A stretch of 64,000 nucleotides of DNA, from assembly GCF_024169245.1 (NCBI RefSeq), contig NZ_JALJWP010000001.1, forward strand, positions 3,287,501 through 3,351,500, read 5' to 3'. The position numbers were made by a program, and so were the translations under genes. Source of the stretch: Pseudomonas koreensis (GTDB lineage Bacteria; Pseudomonadota; Gammaproteobacteria; Pseudomonadales; Pseudomonadaceae). The notes under the pieces are model-generated. The model worked only from the letters and a program-made list of their open reading frames with translations, made no database searches and was not told the origin of the DNA. Positions 1 through 9,089 of this stretch are shown here, in pieces (the first letter of the stretch is position 1; the number at the start of each line of letters is the position of its first letter).

Positions 1-2322
1 GCGCCGCTCGGCGTCTTCGAGCACGTTCTTCTTGATGTGCTCCATGCCGACCCGTTGCAGGTAGTGCACGGTGCGTTCGAGGTAGAAAGCTTCTTCGCGA
101 TACAGCTGCAAAAAGGCACCGTTGTATTCGCGAACTTCTTCGGCGGTTTTCAGTTTGACGAAGAACTCGGCGACTTCGGTCTTGATCCCGCCGTTGCCAC
201 CGATGTACATCTCCCAGCCGGAGTCGACGCCGATAATTCCTACGTCCTTGATGCCCGCTTCCGAGCAGTTGCGTGGGCAACCGGATACCGCCAGCTTGAC
301 CTTGTGCGGCGACCACATGTTGAACAGGTCGTGCTCGAGCTCGATGCCCAGTTGCGTCGAGTTCTGCGTGCCGAAACGGCAGAACTCGCTGCCAACGCAG
401 GTTTTCACCGTGCGGATGGATTTGCCGTAGGCGTGGCCGGACGGCATGTCGAGGTCTTTCCACACGCCGGGCAGATCCTGTTTCTTGATCCCCAGCAGGT
501 CGATGCGCTGACCGCCGGTGACCTTGACCATCGGCACGTTGTACTTGTCGGCCACATCGGCGATCCGGCGCAGCTCCGACGGGTTGGTCACGCCGCCCCA
601 CATGCGTGGCACCACCGAATAGGTGCCGTCCTTCTGGATGTTGGCGTGGGCACGTTCGTTGATCAGGCGCGATTGCGGATCGTCTTTGGCTTCGCCCGGC
701 CAGGTGGAAATCAGGTAATAGTTGAGCGCCGGACGACAGGTCGCGCAGCCATTGGGCGTGCGCCAGTTCAGGTAACTCATGGTCTCGGCGATGGTTAGCA
801 GGTGTTCCTGACGGATCGCCTGGCGAATCTGCCCGTGGTTGAGGTCGCTGCAACCGCAGATGGCTTTTTCGCTCTTCGGTTTGACGTCCGCTGCGCCACC
901 GACGGTATTGATGAGGATCTGCTCGACCAGACCGGCGCAGGAGCCGCAGGAGCTGGCAGCCTTGGTGTGTTTCTTCACTTCATCGACGCTGAACAGGCCG
1001 TGTTCCTGGATCGCCTTGACGATGGTGCCCTTGCACACACCGTTGCAGCCGCACACTTCGGCGCTGTCGGCCATGACCATGGCTTTGTCCTGGCCCTGAT
1101 GTCCTACGTCGCCTAAAGCGTTTTCGCCGAACATCAAGTGATCGCGGATCTCACCGATGGCGTGATTCTCACGAATCTGCCGGAAATACCAACCGCCATC
1201 TGCCGTATCGCCATACAGACAGGCGCCGACCAGCACGTCATCCTTGATCACCAGTTTTTTGTACACGCCGCCGATCGGGTCGGAGAGGGTGATGGTCTCG
1301 GTGCCTTCGCCGCCCATGAAATCGCCGGCGGAAAACAGGTCGATGCCGGTGACTTTCAATTTGGTCGAAGTCACCGAGCCCTGATAGCGAGCGAAACCCA
1401 GTTGCGCGAGGTGGTTGGCGCAAACCTTGGCCTGTTCGAACAGCGGCGCAACCAGGCCGTAGGCGATGCCGCGATGACTGGCGCATTCGCCGATCGCGTA
1501 GATGCGCGGATCGTAGGTTTGCAGGGTGTCGTTGACCAGAATCCCGCGATTGCACGGGATGCCGGCCTTTTCCGCCAGTTCGGTGTTAGGACGAATGCCG
1601 GCGGCCATCACCACCAGGTCGGCAGGGATGATGTCGCCGTTCTTGAACTGCACCGAGCCGACCCGGCCATTGCCGGCGTCGTGCAGGGCCTGGGTCAGTT
1701 CGCACAGGCGGAAATGCAGGCCCCGGGATTCCAGCGCTGATTGCAGCAACTGGCCGCTGGTCTTGTCCAGTTGCCGCTCCAGCAGCCATTCGCCGAGGTG
1801 CACCACGGTGACGTGCATGCCACGCAGCATCAGGCCGTTGGCCGCTTCGAGGCCGAGCAGACCGCCGCCGATGACCACGGCGTGTTTGTGGGTCCTGGCG
1901 GTGTCGATCATGGCTTGGGTGTCGGCGATGTCGCGATAACCGATCACGCCCTGCAAAGTGTTGCCGGGGATTGGCAGGATAAATGGGGTCGAGCCGGTGG
2001 CGATCAGCAGACGGTCGTACTCGGCTTCGGTGCCGTCCTCGGCGATCACCCGGCGTTTGCCCCGGTCGATCTCCACGACTTTGCGGTTGAGCAGCAACTT
2101 GATGTTGTTTTCCAGGTACCAGTCGAGGTCGTTGAGGACGATCTCTTCGAAGGTCTGCTCACCGGCCAGCACCGGCGACAGCAGGATGCGGTTGTAGTTG
2201 GTGTGCGGTTCGGCGCCGAAGACGGTGATGTCGTAGAGCTCGTCGCTCAGCTTGAGCAGTTCTTCCAGGGTACGCACCCCGGCCATGCCGTTGCCGATCA
2301 TCACCAGTTTGAGTTTTTTCAT
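1..2322 (-). CDS. nirB: Assimilatory nitrite reductase, large subunit (partial, 3' end outside window)
   Basis: Reduces nitrite to ammonium in the cytoplasm using NAD(P)H. Translating the minus strand from the ATG at 2322 gives 774 open codons to the window edge. The order seen is an FAD/NAD(P)-binding pyridine nucleotide-disulphide reductase part starting MKKLKLVMIGNGMAG, two BFD-type [2Fe-2S] clusters (CGCNGVCKG with CGSCAG, then CGCSDLNHG with CATCRP), and the sirohaem/[4Fe-4S] reductase part with CVGSEFCRFG and CPRNCSEAG. The usual length is a little over 800 residues, so only a short C-terminus is missing; nirD probably follows outside the window. It is preceded by a long leader carrying ANTAR-type hairpins and a terminator. 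The start is supported by GGAG just upstream. Confidence 0.96.
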   Translation of the reverse strand, partial: MKKLKLVMIGNGMAGVRTLEELLKLSDELYDITVFGAEPHTNYNRILLSPVLAGEQTFEEIVLNDLDWYLENNIKLLLNRKVVEIDRGKRRVIAEDGTEAEYDRLLIATGSTPFILPIPGNTLQGVIGYRDIADTQAMIDTARTHKHAVVIGGGLLGLEAANGLMLRGMHVTVVHLGEWLLERQLDKTSGQLLQSALESRGLHFRLCELTQALHDAGNGRVGSVQFKNGDIIPADLVVMAAGIRPNTELAEKAGIPCNRGILVNDTLQTYDPRIYAIGECASHRGIAYGLVAPLFEQAKVCANHLAQLGFARYQGSVTSTKLKVTGIDLFSAGDFMGGEGTETITLSDPIGGVYKKLVIKDDVLVGACLYGDTADGGWYFRQIRENHAIGEIRDHLMFGENALGDVGHQGQDKAMVMADSAEVCGCNGVCKGTIVKAIQEHGLFSVDEVKKHTKAASSCGSCAGLVEQILINTVGGAADVKPKSEKAICGCSDLNHGQIRQAIRQEHLLTIAETMSYLNWRTPNGCATCRPALNYYLISTWPGEAKDDPQSRLINERAHANIQKDGTYSVVPRMWGGVTNPSELRRIADVADKYNVPMVKVTGGQRIDLLGIKKQDLPGVWKDLDMPSGHAYGKSIRTVKTCVGSEFCRFGTQNSTQLGIELEHDLFNMWSPHKVKLAVSGCPRNCSEAGIKDVGIIGVDSGWEMYIGGNGGIKTEVAEFFVKLKTAEEVREYNGAFLQLYREEAFYLERTVHYLQRVGMEHIKKNVLEDAERR

Positions 2323-2392: not shown

Positions 2393-2480
2393 AAAAAAAG
2401 GCGTCCCGCTAGTTGCCTAGCGAGGACGCCTTTGTCCTGGTCCCGTTCTCTCGGGAAGCGCAGCCTTCGTCGTTGAAGGT
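2393..2480 (-). promoter_or_regulatory. nirB leader: ANTAR-type hairpins and intrinsic terminator
   Basis: Read on the minus strand, the leader holds an upstream hairpin with hexaloop AACGAC (2464-2479), a second with stem UCCCG and loop AGAGAA (2441-2456), and a third with stem AGGAC and loop AAAGGC (2423-2438). All three loops have A at position 1 and G at position 4, the known signature of ANTAR-protein targets. The third hairpin overlaps the 5' arm of a strong terminator (2400-2430) followed by seven U (2393-2399). Binding of NasT to the hairpins should block the terminator. This is inferred from the known NasST/NasR mechanism. Confidence 0.82.
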
Positions 2481-2508
2481 TGGGCTTTATGTGTGGTGAG
2501 AAGGGTAA

Positions 2509-2524
2509 TGCAGTGGTTGTGCCA
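2509..2524 (-). promoter_or_regulatory. Candidate sigma-54 promoter of nirB
   Basis: On the minus strand the sequence reads TGGCACAACCACTGCA, with GG and GC exactly 10 bases apart as in the -24/-12 class (consensus TGGCAC-N5-TTGC). It lies about 30 bases upstream of the first leader hairpin, which is the right distance for transcription to start just before the ANTAR motif. Nitrogen control through NtrC/RpoN is therefore likely. Confidence 0.65.
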
Positions 2525-2645
2525 ACTACGGGACGCGCGGTTTTATTGGGTTTCGTTAGCGCTCCCAAAGGTTTTTCTGCACCGTATCGAAGCAGGCTGA
2601 TCGTTCGTGGAGCATTCAGGCAGATGGATTTGTAGCGACTGGAAG

Positions 2646-2722
2646 GGCGTCATCGCGAGCAGGCTCACTCCTACAATTTGAAATGCATTCCCCCTGTAGG
2701 AGTGAGCCTGCTCGCGATGGCC
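2646..2722. repeat. REP-like inverted repeat, 'GTAGGAGTGAGCCTGCTCGCGA' family
   Basis: Two inverted arms sharing TAGGAGTGAGCCTGCTCGCG are separated by a short spacer. The same arms occur at 18281-18377 and 37956-38052. The element lies at the 3' end of the phosphatase-kinase gene and upstream of the nirB promoter. The rest of 2525-2733 shows no gene. Confidence 0.85.
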
Positions 2723-2733
2723 GCGACGCGGTG

Positions 2734-4404
2734 TCAGTGATGAAACAACAAAACCAGCAGCACCACATTCCCGAGCAATGCCAGAAGCGCCATCGTCCTC
2801 CAGACCTTCAAGGGCTCTCGCTCCAACAAGGGCCGAGGCCGCACACTCAAACTACGTCGCTCACCCTGTTCCAGCACCAGCAACCACTCTTCAGCCGTTT
2901 CAAAGCGTTGCTGCGGATCGGCTGCGACGCCGCGTTCCAGACTCTGCGCCAGCCATTCCGGCAAGTCCGGGCGATAGCGACTGGCACTGACCGGCACGCC
3001 AAACCGGGGCCGCTGGAACGCTTCGATCTCGCCGTAGGGAAAATGCCCGGTGAGCAGGTAATAAAGGGTGACGCCAACTGAATACAAATCCTGCTGTGCA
3101 TTCGGTGGTTCGCCGCGAAACGCTTCCGGAGCAATGAAGCTTGGCGTTCCCGGCAATGTCGCCGGCGCGTCTTCCGACAAGCCCGGGCAATAAGCCAGCC
3201 CGAAATCCAGCAAGCGCAGCTCGCCATCATCACCCAGCAGGAGGTTTTCCGGTTTGATATCGCGGTGCAGAATCTGCCGCCGATGCAACAGCCCCACCGC
3301 GCGCAACAGGCGCTCGGCAATGTCCTGCCATTGCGCCAATGGCAGCGGGCCGCGGTGTTGAAACACTTCGGCCAGTGTCGTCCCGGCATATTCGCGCATG
3401 ACGTAATACAAATGCTGACGCTGGGTGCAGGCATGGATTTCCGGAAAATGCCGTCCGGCCACGCGCTTGAGGAACCATTCCTCGGACAGCAGCGCTTGCC
3501 CGGCCTGTGGATCGTCGGCCAAGCGCGTCGGCAAGGTCTTCAACAGCCACGGCTGGCCGTGGCCATCGAGCACGCGATACAGCAGCGATTGCTGGCTCTG
3601 GCCGATGATGCCTTGCACCTGCCAGCCTTCAAACGCTTGCCCGGGTTTCAGCGCTGGCGGCAGCGGCCATTGCTGCAGCTGCACCAGCGCATCGCCGATG
3701 TTCGATTCGCCCAGCGCATCGACGCGCACCAGCAGGGCACTGGCATTGTCCTGACTGCCGGCCAGATGCGCGGCGTTGACCAGGGTTTGCGCCGCGCTGT
3801 GCAGATCCGGTTGATCACGCAGAATTGCCGCGATCGCGGTATCGCCTAAGGTCGACCCGACGCCGTCGCTGAGCAGGACGAAGCTTTCGCCCTCTCGCAA
3901 TTCACCGTCGAGGAAGTCCAGCACCAGATGCTGATCGAGCCCGAGCGCACGTTTGAGCACATGCTGCATGCCCGGTTGCTCCCAGACGTGATCCTCGCTG
4001 ATGCGCTGCAACCGGTCGGCATGCCAGCGATAGACCCGGCAATCGCCGACATGGGCGAGGGTGAAGCGCCGACCGCGCATCACCAGCGCGCTGACCGTGG
4101 TCAGCAGCGGTTGCCCGCCGCCGTTGGCCTGCAGCCAGCGATTTTGCGCGAGCAGCAGGCGATCCAGCGCCTGGGCCACACTCCAGGTTTCCGGCGTGGC
4201 GTAGTAGTCCAGCGCCAGCGCCTGCAAGGTTGAACGCGCGGCGAGGCCGCCGTCGGCGCATTGACTGACGCCGTCGGCGATGGCGAACAGAAAACCCTTG
4301 CTTACCGCCAATGCCGGCGCGGGTGTCACCGAACGCAGGGCGTCCTGATTCTCCGCGCGTGGGCCGGTGGCGCTGGCTTCGGCGAAACTCAGTTGCAGGG
4401 CCAT
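2734..4404 (-). CDS. Bifunctional PP2C protein phosphatase / Ser-Thr kinase, membrane anchored
   Basis: A 556-residue fusion. Residues about 1-235 form a PP2C phosphatase (RAENQDALR, FAIADGVSQC, VGDCRVYR, LLSDGVGSTL, GSQDNASALLV). Residues about 265-515 form a Hanks-type kinase with the lysine in WLLKTLP, HRDIKPENLLL, DFGLAY and GTPSFIAPEAF. A C-terminal hydrophobic segment (about 533-552) anchors it, leaving the catalytic parts in the cytoplasm. It starts 7 bases after the nasA stop, so it is co-transcribed with the nitrate transporter. A homologue sits at the same place in P. aeruginosa, as I recall. Its substrate is unknown; a role in tuning nitrate uptake or nitrite reduction is inference from position only. 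Confidence 0.9.
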   Translation of the reverse strand: MALQLSFAEASATGPRAENQDALRSVTPAPALAVSKGFLFAIADGVSQCADGGLAARSTLQALALDYYATPETWSVAQALDRLLLAQNRWLQANGGGQPLLTTVSALVMRGRRFTLAHVGDCRVYRWHADRLQRISEDHVWEQPGMQHVLKRALGLDQHLVLDFLDGELREGESFVLLSDGVGSTLGDTAIAAILRDQPDLHSAAQTLVNAAHLAGSQDNASALLVRVDALGESNIGDALVQLQQWPLPPALKPGQAFEGWQVQGIIGQSQQSLLYRVLDGHGQPWLLKTLPTRLADDPQAGQALLSEEWFLKRVAGRHFPEIHACTQRQHLYYVMREYAGTTLAEVFQHRGPLPLAQWQDIAERLLRAVGLLHRRQILHRDIKPENLLLGDDGELRLLDFGLAYCPGLSEDAPATLPGTPSFIAPEAFRGEPPNAQQDLYSVGVTLYYLLTGHFPYGEIEAFQRPRFGVPVSASRYRPDLPEWLAQSLERGVAADPQQRFETAEEWLLVLEQGERRSLSVRPRPLLEREPLKVWRTMALLALLGNVVLLVLLFHH

Positions 4405-4411
4405 TGAAGCC

Positions 4412-5623
4412 TCAGACCCGCGCCGCCGTTACTGCCGCCGAACCCCAGGTGGTTCTCCAGCGACGCTTGACGCCGTGCAGGCCAAACCACGCCAATACAC
4501 CGAGGCTGGCGAACAACCACAGCGCCAGTTGATAGCTGCCGGTGCTTTGCTTGATCGCGCCCATACCGGCCGCGAGGGCGAAGCCGCCGATACCGCCGGC
4601 CATGCCGATCAGCCCGGTCATAACGCCGATCTCCAGACGAAAGCGCTGCGGCACCAGTTGGAAAACAGCACCGTTGCCCGCGCCCAGGCCAAGCATGGTG
4701 CAGACGAAAAGCGCCAGCGCCGCGTAGGAACTTGGCAGGTTGAAGCCGACGGCGGCGATGCAGGTGGCGGCAACGGTATACATCGCCAGCAAGGTGCGGA
4801 TGCCACCGAAGCGATCGGCCAGCGCACCACCCAGCGGCCGCATCAGGCTGCCGCCGAACACGCAGGCCGCGGTGTAGTAGCCGGCGGTCACCGGGCTCAG
4901 ACCGTATTGATCGTTGAAATAACCTGGCAGGGCGCTGGCAAGGCCGATGAAGCCGCCGAAGGTGACGCTGTAGAAAAACATGAACCACCAGCTGTCGCGG
5001 TCACCGAGGGCCTTGAAGTAATCGGCCATGGCTTTCGGTTTTGGCCGCTGGGGAGCGTTTTTTGCCAGCAAGGCGAACAGCACCAAGGTCAGGATCAACG
5101 GGATCAGGGCGAAACCGAAGACATTGCTCCAGCCGAACGCTGCGGCAATCACTGGCGCGAGCAGTGCGGCGAACACAGTGCCGGAGTTGCCGGCGCCGGC
5201 GATGCCCATGGCTTTGCCCTGATGTTCTGGCGGGTACCATTGCGAGGCCAGGGGCAGGGCGACGGCGAACGACGCGCCGGCCATGCCGAGGAACAGGCCG
5301 AGGATCAGCGCCTGTTCATAACTGTGGATACCCAGTTTCCACGCGCCGAACAGTGCGCAGATGACGATGACCTGGCCGATCAGCCCGGCGGTCTTCGGCG
5401 ACAGGCGATCGGCGAGCATGCCCATGGCAAAGCGCAACACCGCACCGGCCAGAATCGGCGTGGCGACGACGAGGCCGCGTTGCTGGGTGGTCAGGTGCAG
5501 GTCGGCGGCAATCTGCACCGCCAGCGGGCCGAGCAGGTACCAGACCATGAAGCTCAGGTCGAAATACAGGAAGGCCGCGAACAGGGTCGGGGTATGGCCG
5601 GATTTCCAGAAGCTTGAATTCAT
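4412..5623 (-). CDS. nasA: Nitrate/nitrite transporter, MFS (NNP family)
   Basis: An inner-membrane carrier of 403 residues with about 12 hydrophobic segments. It imports nitrate (and possibly nitrite) for assimilation. Family marks include FLYFDLSFMVWYLLGPLAV at the N-terminus and the glycine-rich nitrate-signature-like stretches GMAGASFAVALPLASQWYPP and GAGNSGTVFAALLAP. The ATG at 5623 is preferred over the GTG at 5665 because GAGG lies 6 bases upstream and homologues start with the short hydrophilic MNSSFWKSGH. It is followed directly by the phosphatase-kinase gene and preceded by an ANTAR-type leader with a sigma-54 promoter, so it should be induced by nitrate under ammonium limitation. 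Confidence 0.93.
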   Translation of the reverse strand: MNSSFWKSGHTPTLFAAFLYFDLSFMVWYLLGPLAVQIAADLHLTTQQRGLVVATPILAGAVLRFAMGMLADRLSPKTAGLIGQVIVICALFGAWKLGIHSYEQALILGLFLGMAGASFAVALPLASQWYPPEHQGKAMGIAGAGNSGTVFAALLAPVIAAAFGWSNVFGFALIPLILTLVLFALLAKNAPQRPKPKAMADYFKALGDRDSWWFMFFYSVTFGGFIGLASALPGYFNDQYGLSPVTAGYYTAACVFGGSLMRPLGGALADRFGGIRTLLAMYTVAATCIAAVGFNLPSSYAALALFVCTMLGLGAGNGAVFQLVPQRFRLEIGVMTGLIGMAGGIGGFALAAGMGAIKQSTGSYQLALWLFASLGVLAWFGLHGVKRRWRTTWGSAAVTAARV

Positions 5624-5721
5624 CGCGCACCTCGGCTGAAAAGAGTCTCGAAAGGAGTCATGCACAGCAGGTGGAGCGCCTCACGGCCGCACCACCGGCC
5701 CCGTTCTCTGGGGCCAAAACG

Positions 5722-5805
5722 CAAAAACGCCGCTACCTGATTCGCCGGAGGCGAACGGGGTGAGCGACGTCTTTGTCGTAGGTGGGGCAACCGCCGTTGG
5801 TTACC
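5722..5805 (-). promoter_or_regulatory. nasA leader: two ANTAR-type hairpins overlapping an intrinsic terminator
   Basis: Minus strand: hairpin 1 (5786-5805) has the 7-bp stem GGUAACC/GGUUGCC and loop AACGGC. Hairpin 2 (5765-5778) has stem CGAC/GUCG and loop AAAGAC. Both loops keep A1 and G4. The 3' side of hairpin 2 is also the 5' arm of a terminator (5727-5770) ending in a U tract (5723-5727). The two folds are mutually exclusive, the layout expected for NasT antitermination. Confidence 0.82.
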
Positions 5806-5819
5806 TGTGCGGTTTACTT

Positions 5820-5835
5820 AGCGAGATTTGTGCCA
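5820..5835 (-). promoter_or_regulatory. Candidate sigma-54 promoter of nasA
   Basis: The minus strand reads TGGCACAAATCTCGCT, with the GG-N10-GC spacing of the -24/-12 class and a perfect TGGCAC half. Transcription would start near 5809, immediately before leader hairpin 1. Confidence 0.65.
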
Positions 5836-5842
5836 AGGCTTG

Positions 5843-5940
5843 AAAAGATCGCAGCCTCGTTGCACTCGTCAGCTCCTACAGGCGGGTGCGTTCACTTGTA
5901 GGAGCTGACGAGTGCAACGAGGCTGCGATCTTTTGATCTT
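5843..5940. repeat. REP-like inverted repeat, 'GTAGGAGCTGACGAGTGCAACG' variant
   Basis: Two long complementary arms of about 38 bases (AAGATCGCAGCCTCGTTGCA and its complement) flank a short spacer. The element fills the space between the nasT stop codon and the nasA promoter. As a very stable hairpin it may separate nasST from nasA transcription. Relatives are at 8995, 14776, 16951, 31206, 41521, 43420 and 44719. Confidence 0.88.
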
Positions 5941-5943
5941 CAA

Positions 5944-6519
5944 TCAGCCCAGCAACTCACTCATGGCAATGATCTGCTCCGCCACTTGAATCAGCTTCTG
6001 CTGGCGGCTCATGGCCTGGCGGCGCATCAGGGTGTAGGCCTCCTCTTCGTTGCAATCCTTCATCTTCATCAGCAAACCCTTGGCCAGTTCGATGCGCTTG
6101 CGCTCGGCCAGTTGCTGGTCACGGGCCTGCAATTGCGCGCGCAAGGCCTGGTCGCTCTCGAAGCGCGCCATCGCCACATCGAGAATCGGCTGCAGACGCT
6201 GTGCGTGAATGCCTTCGACGATGTAGGCGCTGACCCCGGACTTGATCGCCTGACGCATCACCCCTGGGTCATGTTCGTCGGTAAACATCACGATCGGCCG
6301 TGGCTGGTCGCGGCTGACCAGCACCACTTGCTCCATGACATCGCGGCTCGGTGACTCGGTATCGATCAGGATCACGTCCGGGCGCACCGTTTCGACGCGC
6401 GCGGGCAAGTCGATAGTCAGGCCGGACTCGTCGATCACTTCGAAACCGGCCTCGGTCAGCGCCGCTTTCAGGCGGCCGACTTTTTTCGCGGTGTCGTTGA
6501 TCAGCAGAATGCGCAACAT
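5944..6519 (-). CDS. nasT: NasT: ANTAR-domain antiterminator of nitrate assimilation
   Basis: 191 residues: a receiver-like domain (MLRILLINDTAKKVGRL, VILIDTESPS) followed by a C-terminal ANTAR RNA-binding domain with ERKRIELAKGLLMKMKDCNE and EEAYTLMRRQAM. In the known two-component system, NasS holds NasT inactive without nitrate. Free NasT then binds leader hairpins and prevents termination. It lies 15 bases downstream of nasS. Its targets are visible in this window upstream of nirB, nasA and nasS, each with A1/G4 hexaloops. Confidence 0.95.
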   Translation of the reverse strand: MLRILLINDTAKKVGRLKAALTEAGFEVIDESGLTIDLPARVETVRPDVILIDTESPSRDVMEQVVLVSRDQPRPIVMFTDEHDPGVMRQAIKSGVSAYIVEGIHAQRLQPILDVAMARFESDQALRAQLQARDQQLAERKRIELAKGLLMKMKDCNEEEAYTLMRRQAMSRQQKLIQVAEQIIAMSELLG

Positions 6520-6534
6520 GTTCGCGGTCTCCTG

Positions 6535-7746
6535 TCAGCGGCGGGCGAGAAGAGGGGCATCGTCGTTCAACGCGTGCAGCTTGAAACTGCGTGCATAGCC
6601 CGCCGGATCGCTGCCGTCCCAGACCTTGCCGTCGAGCAACTGGCTGCTGCGCAGGTCTGCATGGGAAGCCGCAACACCGACAGCGCTGGCGGCCTCGCGG
6701 TACAGATCCAGATGCTGAACCTTCCGGGCGACGGCCAGATAATCCGGATCCTCACGTAACAGACCCCAGCGACGGAACTGGGTCATGAACCACATGCCGT
6801 CGGAGAGGTACGGCAGATTGACCTCGCCTCCGCCATGAAAACGCAGCGCGTGCGGATCCTGCCAGCTATTGCCGAGGCCGTCGGCGTAGTCGCCCATAAA
6901 GCGCGGCTCGATGCACGCGGCCGGGGTGTTGAGATATTCGCCAGCGCTGAGCAGTTGCGCGGTGCTGCGGCGGTTCTCCGGGCTTTCTTCGATGAAGCGA
7001 CTGGCCTCAAGAATGGCCATGACCAGCGCCCGTGCGGTGTTCGGGTATTGCTCGACGAATTCACGGGTGCAGCCGAGGACTTTTTCCGGGTGGTCGGGCC
7101 AGATGCTCTGGCTGGTGGCCAAGGTGAAACCGAGATCCTGCTGCACCGCGCTGGCTGCCCACGGTTCGCCGACGCAAAAACCGTCGATGCGCCCGGCTTG
7201 CAGGTGCGCGACCATTTGCGGCGGCGGCACCACCACACTGTCGACGTCCTGCAACGGATGAATGCCCTGGCTCGCCAGCCAGTAATACAGCCACATCGCG
7301 TGGGTGCCGGTGGGGAAGGTCTGGGCGAAGGTCAGTTTTGCGCGGCTTTGGTGCACGTGCCGATCGAGCGCTTCAGGACTGTTCACGCCAGCCTGTTGCA
7401 AGCCATGGGACAGATTCAGGCTCTGGCCATTCTGGTTCAGGCCCATCAACACCGCCATATCGGTCGGGGCGATCCCGCCGATGCCCAGGTGCACCGCATA
7501 AATCAGGCCGTACAGGCTGTGCGCGGCATCCAGTTCGCCGCTGACCAGTTTGTCGCGCAGGTTGGCCCATGACGCCTGACGCTTGAGGTTCAGCGTCAGC
7601 CCATAGGGCTGGGCGAAGCCCTGGGTGGCGGCGACCACCACCGAGGCGCAATCGCTCAGTGCCATGAAGCCGAGATTGATCGCGCTCTTTTCTGGCGCAT
7701 CGCTGCCATTGACCCAGGCCAGAGGCCCCGAGGACGTTTCGTTCAT
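6535..7746 (-). CDS. nasS: NasS: nitrate-responsive regulator, NrtA/NasS family
   Basis: 403 residues of the NrtA-like solute-binding fold (NLGFMALSDCASVVVAATQG, GELDAAHSLYGLIYA, TGTHAMWLYYWLASQG, GRIDGFCVGEPWAA). No signal peptide is present, which fits a cytoplasmic sensor and not the periplasmic NrtA subunit of an ABC importer; no ABC genes are nearby. It is the first gene of the nasST unit, with GAGG 6 bases before the ATG. Its own leader carries the same hairpin and terminator elements as its target genes, suggesting autoregulation. Confidence 0.93.
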   Translation of the reverse strand: MNETSSGPLAWVNGSDAPEKSAINLGFMALSDCASVVVAATQGFAQPYGLTLNLKRQASWANLRDKLVSGELDAAHSLYGLIYAVHLGIGGIAPTDMAVLMGLNQNGQSLNLSHGLQQAGVNSPEALDRHVHQSRAKLTFAQTFPTGTHAMWLYYWLASQGIHPLQDVDSVVVPPPQMVAHLQAGRIDGFCVGEPWAASAVQQDLGFTLATSQSIWPDHPEKVLGCTREFVEQYPNTARALVMAILEASRFIEESPENRRSTAQLLSAGEYLNTPAACIEPRFMGDYADGLGNSWQDPHALRFHGGGEVNLPYLSDGMWFMTQFRRWGLLREDPDYLAVARKVQHLDLYREAASAVGVAASHADLRSSQLLDGKVWDGSDPAGYARSFKLHALNDDAPLLARR

Positions 7747-7756
7747 ACGCTACCTC

Positions 7757-7839
7757 AAAAAAAACGTCGTCCCGGATTCTGCGCAGGCAAACCCGAGGAC
7801 GACGCCATTGTCCTGGCCTGCGCGCCGTCATTGGTCGGC
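7757..7839 (-). promoter_or_regulatory. nasST leader: ANTAR-like hairpin core and intrinsic terminator
   Basis: Minus strand: a core GACAATGGCGTC (complement of 7801-7812) matches the hairpin-2 core of the nirB (GACAAAGGCGTC) and nasA (GACAAAGACGTC) leaders. It again runs into a terminator (7765-7804) with eight U (7757-7764). An upstream hairpin GCCG/CGGC at 7824-7839 contains AATGAC but its stem is less regular than in the other two leaders. The terminator is very clear; the NasT site is a good but imperfect match. Confidence 0.7.
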
Positions 7840-7858
7840 AGACTGATAGGCAGGCCGG

Positions 7859-7874
7859 TGCAAGGCATATGCCA
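7859..7874 (-). promoter_or_regulatory. Candidate sigma-54 promoter of nasST
   Basis: The minus strand reads TGGCATATGCCTTGCA: GG-N10-GC spacing and a perfect TTGCA half, with one change in TGGCAC. It lies just upstream of the leader hairpins, as in nirB and nasA. Confidence 0.55.
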
Positions 7875-7921
7875 GTCGCCTGATTCGTGCAGGCGCCTCG
7901 CGCCGGGGGGCGATGCCCGGC

Positions 7922-8994: not shown

Positions 8995-9089
8995 CCCGTA
9001 GGAGCTGCCGAAGGCTGCGATCTTTTGATCTTGATCTTGATTTGAAAAGACAAGATCAAAAGATCGCAGCCTTCGGCAGCTCCTACGGG
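8995..9089. repeat. REP-like inverted repeat, 'GTAGGAGCTGCCGAAGGCTGCGATC' family
   Basis: Arms with GTAGGAGCTGCCGAAGGC and its complement flank a GATCTT-rich centre directly after the pyrD stop. It lies back to back with the rmf terminator in the convergent gap. Confidence 0.88.

Follow-up and report, generated by a model that had tools for sequence, protein, structure and literature searches.

A NasT-type antitermination leader predicted upstream of nasS-nasT, beside those of nirB and nasA, in Pseudomonas koreensis

The nirB, nasA, and nasS-nasT units of Pseudomonas koreensis, all parts of which lie on the minus strand of the 64 kb stretch of DNA analysed here (the window), very probably carry ANTAR-type antitermination switches under NasT control, each preceded by a sigma-54 promoter; the third switch would act on nasS-nasT themselves. 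The finding is less new because both the nirB leader and the nasA leader belong to existing Rfam families, and antitermination of nirBD by NasT has been published. The nasS leader appears to form a conserved feedback loop that has attracted little attention; a description of NasT control of nasST was not found in the open-licence literature and may exist in papers beyond that scope. What we observe is the anatomy of the leader DNA and RNA, their conservation, the covariation of hairpin P1, and a single ANTAR protein in the genome. The features are as follows.

1–2322, minus strand: nirB, cut by the window end (TIGR02374)
2393–2430, minus strand: nirB leader terminator (2400–2430) and U-tract (2393–2399), from folding and the P11 consensus structure
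2424–2437, minus strand: nirB leader hairpin P2, GGAC-AAAGGC-GUCC, from core match and folding
2441–2456, minus strand: nirB leader middle hairpin, loop AGAGAA (third A1/G4 hexaloop), from folding
2464–2479, minus strand: nirB leader hairpin P1, loop AACGAC, from folding
2509–2525, minus strand: nirB sigma-54 -24/-12 element, pattern match TTGGCACAACCACTGCA, within the Rfam P11 match at 2400–2536
4412–5623, minus strand: nasA, NarK-type nitrate/nitrite MFS transporter (TIGR00886, PF07690)
5723–5769, minus strand: nasA leader terminator (5728–5769) and U-tract (5723–5727), from folding
5765–5778, minus strand: nasA leader hairpin P2, CGAC-AAAGAC-GUCG, from folding, core match, and model R1
5786–5805, minus strand: nasA leader hairpin P1, loop AACGGC, from folding and model R1
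5820–5836, minus strand: nasA sigma-54 -24/-12 element, pattern match TTGGCACAAATCTCGCT, overlapping the Rfam narK match at 5764–5834
5944–6519, minus strand: nasT, receiver and ANTAR antiterminator (PF03861, 61.2 bits)
6535–7746, minus strand: nasS, nitrate/nitrite-binding sensor (PF13379, 318.7 bits), named by homology
7757–7804, minus strand: nasS leader terminator (7765–7804) and U-tract (7757–7764), from folding
7801–7812, minus strand: nasS leader hairpin P2, GAC-AAUGGC-GUC, from core match
7816–7843, minus strand: nasS leader hairpin P1, loop AAUGAC, interrupted stem, from folding, R1, and covariation
7859–7875, minus strand: nasS sigma-54 -24/-12 element, pattern match CTGGCATATGCCTTGCA

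Outside the window, 3′ of nirB, a Pfam search of locus L252 gives nirD-like, nasC-type nitrate reductase, and cobA-type genes. The nasA product scores 311.5 bits against TIGR00886, marginally below the cut-off of 311.7. NasT is the sole ANTAR match in a search of the whole genome, which leaves it as the cognate ANTAR protein for the leaders.

The first-pass annotation had placed GG-N10-GC elements at 2509, 5820, and 7859 and a hairpin core in each leader, and both are borne out. The pattern YTGGCAYNNNNNYNGCW (GG-N10-GC) matches upstream of nirB, nasA, and nasS at 2509–2525, 5820–5836, and 7859–7875, and the 64 kb contain exactly three copies of the core GACAAWGRCGTC (2425–2436, 5766–5777, and 7801–7812), where 0.07 are expected and none of 100 shuffles reached three. 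The sigma-54 pattern alone is weak evidence, because its four matches in the window (1.24 expected) were equalled by 3 of 100 shuffles. Moreover, over the whole genome the more degenerate core GACAANGRCGYC shows no enrichment (23 + 18 matches vs 17 + 23 for the reversed control), so that the core 12-mer was rejected as stand-alone evidence and core calls need their context. Each leader has, besides the one core hairpin originally named (P2), a partner hairpin, P1.

The presence of sigma-54 elements at all three units fits with a strict dual control, in which phosphorylated NtrC would be bound beside the promoter of every unit, a reading that we regard as possible but somewhat doubtful. It draws further on the prediction of sigma-54 promoters for genes of the nasT group (PMC12316311) and on a P. 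stutzeri ntrC mutant in which nasS, nasT, and nasA drop (PMC8443478). NtrC sites were scored at 12 positions of an NtrC consensus, which divergent sites may escape. An NtrC-like site lies ~53 bp upstream of the nirB promoter of our genome (locus L034; 10/12, shuffle P 0.036), and 26 of 30 nirB loci score at least 10 (mean 9.97 vs 8.13 shuffled). At nasA, the mean over 30 loci from several genera, including some of our own genus g1, is 9.17 vs 8.13, with the best match 80–87 bp upstream in 17 of them, whereas 62 close named relatives give 8.05 vs 8.15 and not one score of 10 or more. With the same consensus, no such site was found at our own nasA (best score 9/12, P 0.30) or nasS (8/12, P 0.91). 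Promoters of nasS show no signal in 82 loci (mean 8.24 vs 8.13; 4/82 at 10 or more), and in 79 named relatives the mean is 8.72 vs 8.11 (11/79 at 10 or more); a recurrent match ~155 bp upstream in these relatives falls, in our genome, within the divergent pyrD frame. Putative NtrC sites are thus conspicuous at nirB and, in other genomes, at many nasA promoters, while neither nasS nor the nasA of the closest relatives shows them. Strict dual control is also disfavoured by the position of many nasS promoters in several genera, seen by eye to lie shortly after a hairpin resembling a terminator and a T-run, both belonging to the gene before, and by the 38-nt perfect inverted repeat that occupies the DNA immediately upstream of our nasA promoter. 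Under nitrogen limitation, P. putida nasA rose 12-fold in an rpoN mutant vs 14.6-fold in the wild type (PMC7801951), which speaks against strict RpoN dependence. Of the dual RpoN/NtrC and NasT control originally put forward, the NasT-type leaders and the sigma-54 elements therefore stand, and direct NtrC control of all three units does not; any identity given to the activator at the nasS promoter is tentative.

Folding of the leaders agrees with the claim that their U-tract terminators re-use the GUC side of the core hairpin. The energy minimum of each full leader is the terminator, which absorbs that side of P2 (in nirB, the 5′ arm of the terminator overlaps P2), so that P2 and terminator exclude each other. 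The energies are −46.9 kcal/mol for nirB (z −6.2, 0/200 shuffles as good), −46.3 kcal/mol for nasA (z −5.9, 0/200), and −43.0 kcal/mol for nasS (z −3.1, 1/200). When the leader ends just 3′ of P2, both P1 and P2 fold in nasA and in nirB, the latter with a third hairpin in between. In nasS, the minimum of this shorter RNA is P1 plus a hairpin competing with the 3-bp P2. This counts against the NasT-switch reading of nasS, as do two more observations: the stretch to P2 is only slightly more stable than shuffles (z −1.5, 15/200 as good), and P1 is closed by two uninterrupted pairs only. By sequence, two A1/G4 hexaloops are present in all three leaders. A generic terminator scan picked up the nirB terminator and not those of nasA and nasS, and its total for the region (6 vs 5.4 in shuffles) shows no excess. 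Among 70 nirB leaders, taken as P11 matches at or above the gathering score and exclusive of weaker ones, a mechanical scan found a P1-type A1/G4 hexaloop in 62. The middle hairpin carries one in 46 of the 70; the seven g10 loci and some of g15 have other loops there, and L175 lacks the hairpin altogether, so that this third hexaloop is not upheld as a general ANTAR element.

Comparison with Rfam places the first two leaders in known families. The nirB leader is a P11 RNA (RF00625; 132.9 bits vs a gathering score of 70), and the nasA leader is a narK RNA (RF03032; 80.6 bits vs 43.2); the genome holds one match to each. P11 is NalA, the nirBD leader of P. aeruginosa and P. putida with a sigma-54 promoter and NasT antitermination, from which our nirB leader, matching over the full length, differs in nothing essential. 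The P11 model also covers promoter DNA and draws pairs there; the narK consensus likewise starts at the sigma-54 promoter, and P2 is not drawn in it as a hairpin. The best Rfam match of our nasS leader is narK with 26.2 bits (E 0.0021), which is under the gathering score. When 35 chosen narK matches were set against 77 nasS matches, narK matches lay 73–127 nt upstream of a nasS match in at least 35 of 71 genomes, and at least 25 of these reach the gathering score. The nasS leader, as we read it, works like a narK RNA, yet is not filed as a member.

A model, R1, made with 43 leader cores taken from other genomes, puts the three leaders ahead of all other matches in the window, 58 in total (nasA 55.7, nasS 23.8, and nirB 17.3 bits; next 12.8). 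In the whole genome R1 gives 25 matches at E ≤ 10, which include nasA and nasS and lack nirB, so that sites of nirB shape can be missed. No credible fourth NasT target was found among the six best other matches inspected, all of which lie in open frames. The match at G000:C1:1124630 (25.1 bits) was rejected since it is inside a 580-residue open frame, presumably recG, and those at 1614134, 3456030, 495211, 2238230, and 5134457 since they fall in open frames of at least 90 codons, which are weak evidence of coding in such GC-rich DNA. The remaining 17 of the 25 have E above 0.2. Across 145 genomes of the order, 17 have R1 matches at E ≤ 0.001; 12 of these genomes are from other families, with a best E of 1.1e-7.

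Below the Rfam threshold in our genome, the candidate nasS leader is well supported by comparison. In a mechanical scan of 88 Pseudomonadaceae nasS loci (90 minus the duplicates L148 and L151, lower-scoring nasS-like matches being left out), promoter and leader (P1, P2, and T-run) were found in 56, probably a lower bound, as leaders visible by eye were missed in L020, L110, L112, L120, L126, L134, and L135. Of the 56, 53 have a sigma-54-like match whose distance to the P1 loop downstream is 35–50 nt; the pattern used is lax, and g6 matches more than 200 nt upstream are probably due to chance. Among the 80 best of at least 551 named relatives, the sigma-54 element precedes nasS in 79 and the P2 pattern with a T-run in 71. 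After repeated sequences were dropped, 74 leaders were available; one alignment omitted seven with longer P1–P2 spacing, and one earlier alignment was selected by P1 as well as P2. In 68 leaders chosen by P2 and T-run, with P1 not a criterion, seven of eight P1 pairs show changes on both sides, 87.1% of the P1 cells are paired, and the loop has A1 in 68 and G4 in 67. Covariation over the whole structure is 0.289 vs 0.114 in shuffles (0/500), and the terminator helix pairs in 96.5% of cells. The near-invariance of P2 is partly built in by the selection. The conservation of promoter and leader, together with the covariation of P1, makes it most likely that NasT acts as antiterminator on the operon that encodes it, as far as comparative data can tell. 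This supports the first-pass annotation in assigning NasT-type ANTAR leaders, on sequence grounds, to all three units. Three results point the other way or limit the claim: P2 loop position 1 is G rather than A in nine nasS loci, the mechanical scan found no nasS leader in 11/11 loci of genus g15, and it is clearly absent in 4 of the 80 close relatives, including P. fragi and P. psychrophila. Because of these absences, nasST self-control would be dispensable.

The same absences, the score below the Rfam cut-off, and a P2 that is not the energy minimum could also be accommodated if only nirB and nasA were NasT targets and the nasS leader were a constitutive attenuator or the relic of a duplicated leader keeping NasST low, and an intrinsic terminator by itself would indeed reduce expression. 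We consider this unlikely: P1 covaries and retains its A1 and G4, whereas a plain terminator needs no P1, and nasT RNA is 7.25-fold up under nitrogen limitation in wild-type P. putida, where the operon is therefore inducible (PMC7801951). Far less probable still are riboswitches or leader-peptide attenuators sensing a metabolite without NasT, for although the Rfam narK entry says only cis-regulatory and names no protein, and an overlap between terminator and antiterminator is found in many attenuators, a pair of A1/G4 hexaloops is the hallmark of ANTAR targets (available sections of PMC3369931), nirBD in relatives requires NasT (available sections of PMC12830290), no conserved short frame is seen by eye in nasS leaders, and the ATG of our nasS P1 is missing in the 37 of 68 leaders whose loop begins AACG.

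The NasT-switch reading of the three leaders has precedents in other systems. The dual-hairpin rule for ANTAR targets, two hexaloops with A at position 1 and G at position 4, is set out in the available part of PMC3369931, where such hairpins stand upstream of a terminator in the EutV leaders of Enterococcus and in NasR-nasF of Klebsiella; EutV, unlike NasT, responds to ethanolamine, and NasR is a one-component nitrate sensor. In Pseudomonas, nirBD is under NasT antitermination according to the accessible portions of PMC12830290 and PMC8092218. A further such system is that of Paracoccus denitrificans, with a NasS-NasT pair, a NasT that binds and shifts nasA leader RNA, and a leader hairpin mutant whose growth on nitrate is the same as that of a nasT mutant; there, however, nasTS lies directly upstream of nasA, and the sections available of PMC3795266 and PMC5424462 mention no leader on nasTS.

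In the mechanism that we propose, NasS would hold NasT when nitrate is absent, and RNA polymerase would halt at each leader terminator. Dissociation of NasS and NasT is known in relatives; with nitrate or nitrite present, NasS would let NasT go, and a NasT dimer would grip P1 and P2 through their A1/G4 hexaloops. A bound P2 would keep its GUC side out of the terminator and allow read-through into nirBD-nasC-cobA, into nasA (and probably the kinase/phosphatase gene next to it), and into nasS-nasT. The third of these targets encodes the regulators themselves, so that NasT would amplify itself along with its inhibitor NasS. We infer both the binding of NasT to these three RNAs and its control of nasST.

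For the Pseudomonadaceae as a family, it is on balance probable that nasST is a self-amplifying NasT target, that its sigma-54 promoter is conserved and has no recognisable NtrC site, and that the leader can be lost lineage by lineage while the promoter stays. This offers an explanation of the Rfam narK RNA as a promoter plus a NasT target. The predicted autoregulation would be relevant to models of nitrate induction, to engineered nitrate-blind strains, and to the c-di-GMP control of NasT reported in the available sections of PMC12830290. If true, the NasST regulon would be complete in Pseudomonas, with uptake, reduction, and the regulators under one RNA switch, and through the self-amplifying nasST loop nitrate assimilation could acquire a threshold or retain a memory of earlier exposure to nitrate.

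The units in question are all encoded on the minus strand, within a Pseudomonas chromosome of 5.97 Mb, and the nasS gene of this genome is 94-95% identical to those of its three nearest named relatives among the matches listed, one of which is a P. fluorescens isolate. The genes are as follows.

nirB, minus strand, running off the window end
2734-4404, minus strand, PP2C phosphatase-Ser/Thr kinase fusion
nasA, minus strand
nasT, minus strand
nasS, minus strand

Past the window, Pfam identifies a Rieske-type, nirD-like gene 3' of nirB, and a molybdopterin oxidoreductase of the nasC type and a tetrapyrrole methylase of the cobA type downstream of nirB. The PP2C-kinase fusion probably shares the nasA leader because it starts 7 bases past the end of nasA. 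A whole-genome search returned one ANTAR match.

The first-pass annotation described a GG-N10-GC promoter-like element, a GAC-AAWGRC-GTC hairpin core and a terminator using the GTC side of that core at nirB, nasA and nasS, and this observation is correct. All three promoter elements are present (2509, 5820 and 7859), the core occurs 3 times in 64 kb against 0.07 expected, and folding of the three leaders bears out the terminators. The core alone has no specificity, as its degenerate form is as common genome-wide as a reversed control. In each leader the core hairpin (P2) is preceded by another one (P1) that likewise has an A1/G4 hexaloop, and the pair makes the leader a tandem ANTAR target. 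When folding was cut after P2, the nirB and nasA leaders formed P1 and P2, whereas the nasS leader formed P1 and a competing hairpin. In the nirB leader, P1 and P2 flank a further hairpin of the A1/G4 hexaloop type, its third (2441-2456); this hairpin recurs in 46 of 70 nirB leaders (L032-L061, L152-L191) and is altered or absent in the rest.

In Rfam searches, the nirB leader belongs to P11 (RF00625) and the nasA leader to narK (RF03032), each family having one match in the genome. The nasS leader has narK as its top match, at 26.2 bits, below the cut-off. Alignments showed that each of the two models starts within the sigma-54 promoter, so that promoter DNA is treated as RNA, and that the last part of the narK model is P2, undrawn in its structure line. 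A model, R1, was built from 43 leader cores, all from other genomes; its top three matches in the window are the nasA, nasS and nirB sites, in that order. The cores have 89.9% of cells paired (70.7% shuffled) and a covariation of 0.455 (0.118 shuffled), values that are partly built in because P1 and P2 patterns chose the cores. Across the whole genome, R1 gave 25 matches at E <= 10, including nasA and nasS. The scan is not exhaustive, since nirB, with its differing P1-P2 spacing, is absent from this list. The six best other matches were inspected, and all six sit in open frames. The simplest reading is a NasT regulon of three units in this genome, because it has one ANTAR match.

Conservation of the nasS leader was examined in 88 non-duplicate nasS loci from the family, of which 86 have a nasT match within the fetched stretch. 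Mechanical scans found a sigma-54-like match in 84/88 and P1, P2 and a T-run in 56/88; by labelled genus, the latter were g1 11/13, g4 2/2, g5 4/7, g6 3/12, g9 9/12, g10 5/7, g12 16/17, g15 0/11, g16 2/2, g17 4/4 and g19 0/1. The leader was found in none of the 11 g15 loci scanned, where the promoter is kept. Among 80 named relatives (the best 80 of 551), the promoter occurs in 79 and the P2 pattern together with a T-run in 71, and the leader is clearly missing in four, including P. fragi and P. psychrophila. At least 35 of 71 genomes have a narK hit 73-127 nt ahead of the nasS match, and in at least 25 this hit scores at or above the gathering score. For covariation, 68 leaders (67 relatives and our own) were picked by P2 and T-run, not by P1. 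Of the 8 pairs in P1, 7 show changes in both partners, with 87.1% of cells paired, A1 in 68/68 loops and G4 in 67/68; the terminator helix was paired in 96.5% of cells. The near-invariance of P2 is no proof by itself because P2 set the selection. Nine g12 leaders with intact P1 have G for A at P2 loop position 1 (L092, L100, L101, L103, L105, L107, L113, L121 and L125), all from genomes with two fetched nasS copies.

As for the proposed dual RpoN/NtrC control, sigma-54-type promoters are well supported at the three units, but NtrC sites are not uniform when scored against an NtrC consensus of 12 positions. NtrC-like sites lie mostly 53-85 bp upstream of nirB promoters and 80-87 bp upstream of nasA promoters in 17 of 30 family loci; none was found at the nasA promoters of 62 close relatives, nor at nasS promoters among the scored family loci and named relatives. 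In P. stutzeri A1501, NtrC sites are reported for nasB and nasF, and mutation of ntrC lowers nasS, nasT and nasA (PMC8443478); sigma-54 promoters have been predicted for nasT-group genes (PMC12316311). NtrC may therefore reach nasS indirectly or by way of a distant or weak site, or a different activator may serve this promoter. When nitrogen is limiting, wild-type P. putida induces nirB 13.4-fold and nasA 14.6-fold, and an rpoN mutant 5.2-fold and 12-fold, respectively (PMC7801951); the nasA value in the mutant counts against strict RpoN control. Three perfect, REP-like inverted repeats occur at 2651-2719, 5843-5934 and 8995-9089 (arms of 25, 38 and 39 nt), the second directly upstream of the nasA promoter at the expected enhancer place.

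Sixteen further P11/narK hits, away from nasS and nasA, were examined in relatives. At L194, L199 and L203, a separate frame for a nasC-type nitrate reductase follows a narK-type hit whose P2 ends in GCC; the frame was assigned by Pfam at L199, the one locus of the three on which Pfam was run, and the core finder found no P1 at L199. NasT-type leaders precede an alginate-export-family porin and a PilJ-domain protein at L198 (by Pfam) and L205 (by likeness of the PilJ-type frame), and L197 and L204 have the same leader type, judged by leader sequence. Both kinds of site are leads only, the porin/PilJ leaders suggesting a wider NasT regulon in some relatives.

In Paracoccus, NasT binds the nasA leader and NasS lets go of NasT upon nitrate or nitrite (PMC3795266), and with EutV, A1 and G4 of both hexaloops affect binding and induction (PMC3369931). 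By analogy, we infer that NasT binds the present leaders and allows their read-through. The nirB and nasA units are already known: for Pseudomonas nirBD, antitermination by NasT has been described along with sigma-54 and NtrC (PMC12830290, PMC8092218, citing Romeo 2012 and Nie 2024). Self-control of nasST by the third leader, of which we found no description in the literature searched, is well supported by sequence comparison. NasT freed from NasS would open the nirB, nasA and nasS leaders, and the nasS leader would make the system self-amplifying, with the inhibitor NasS made alongside.
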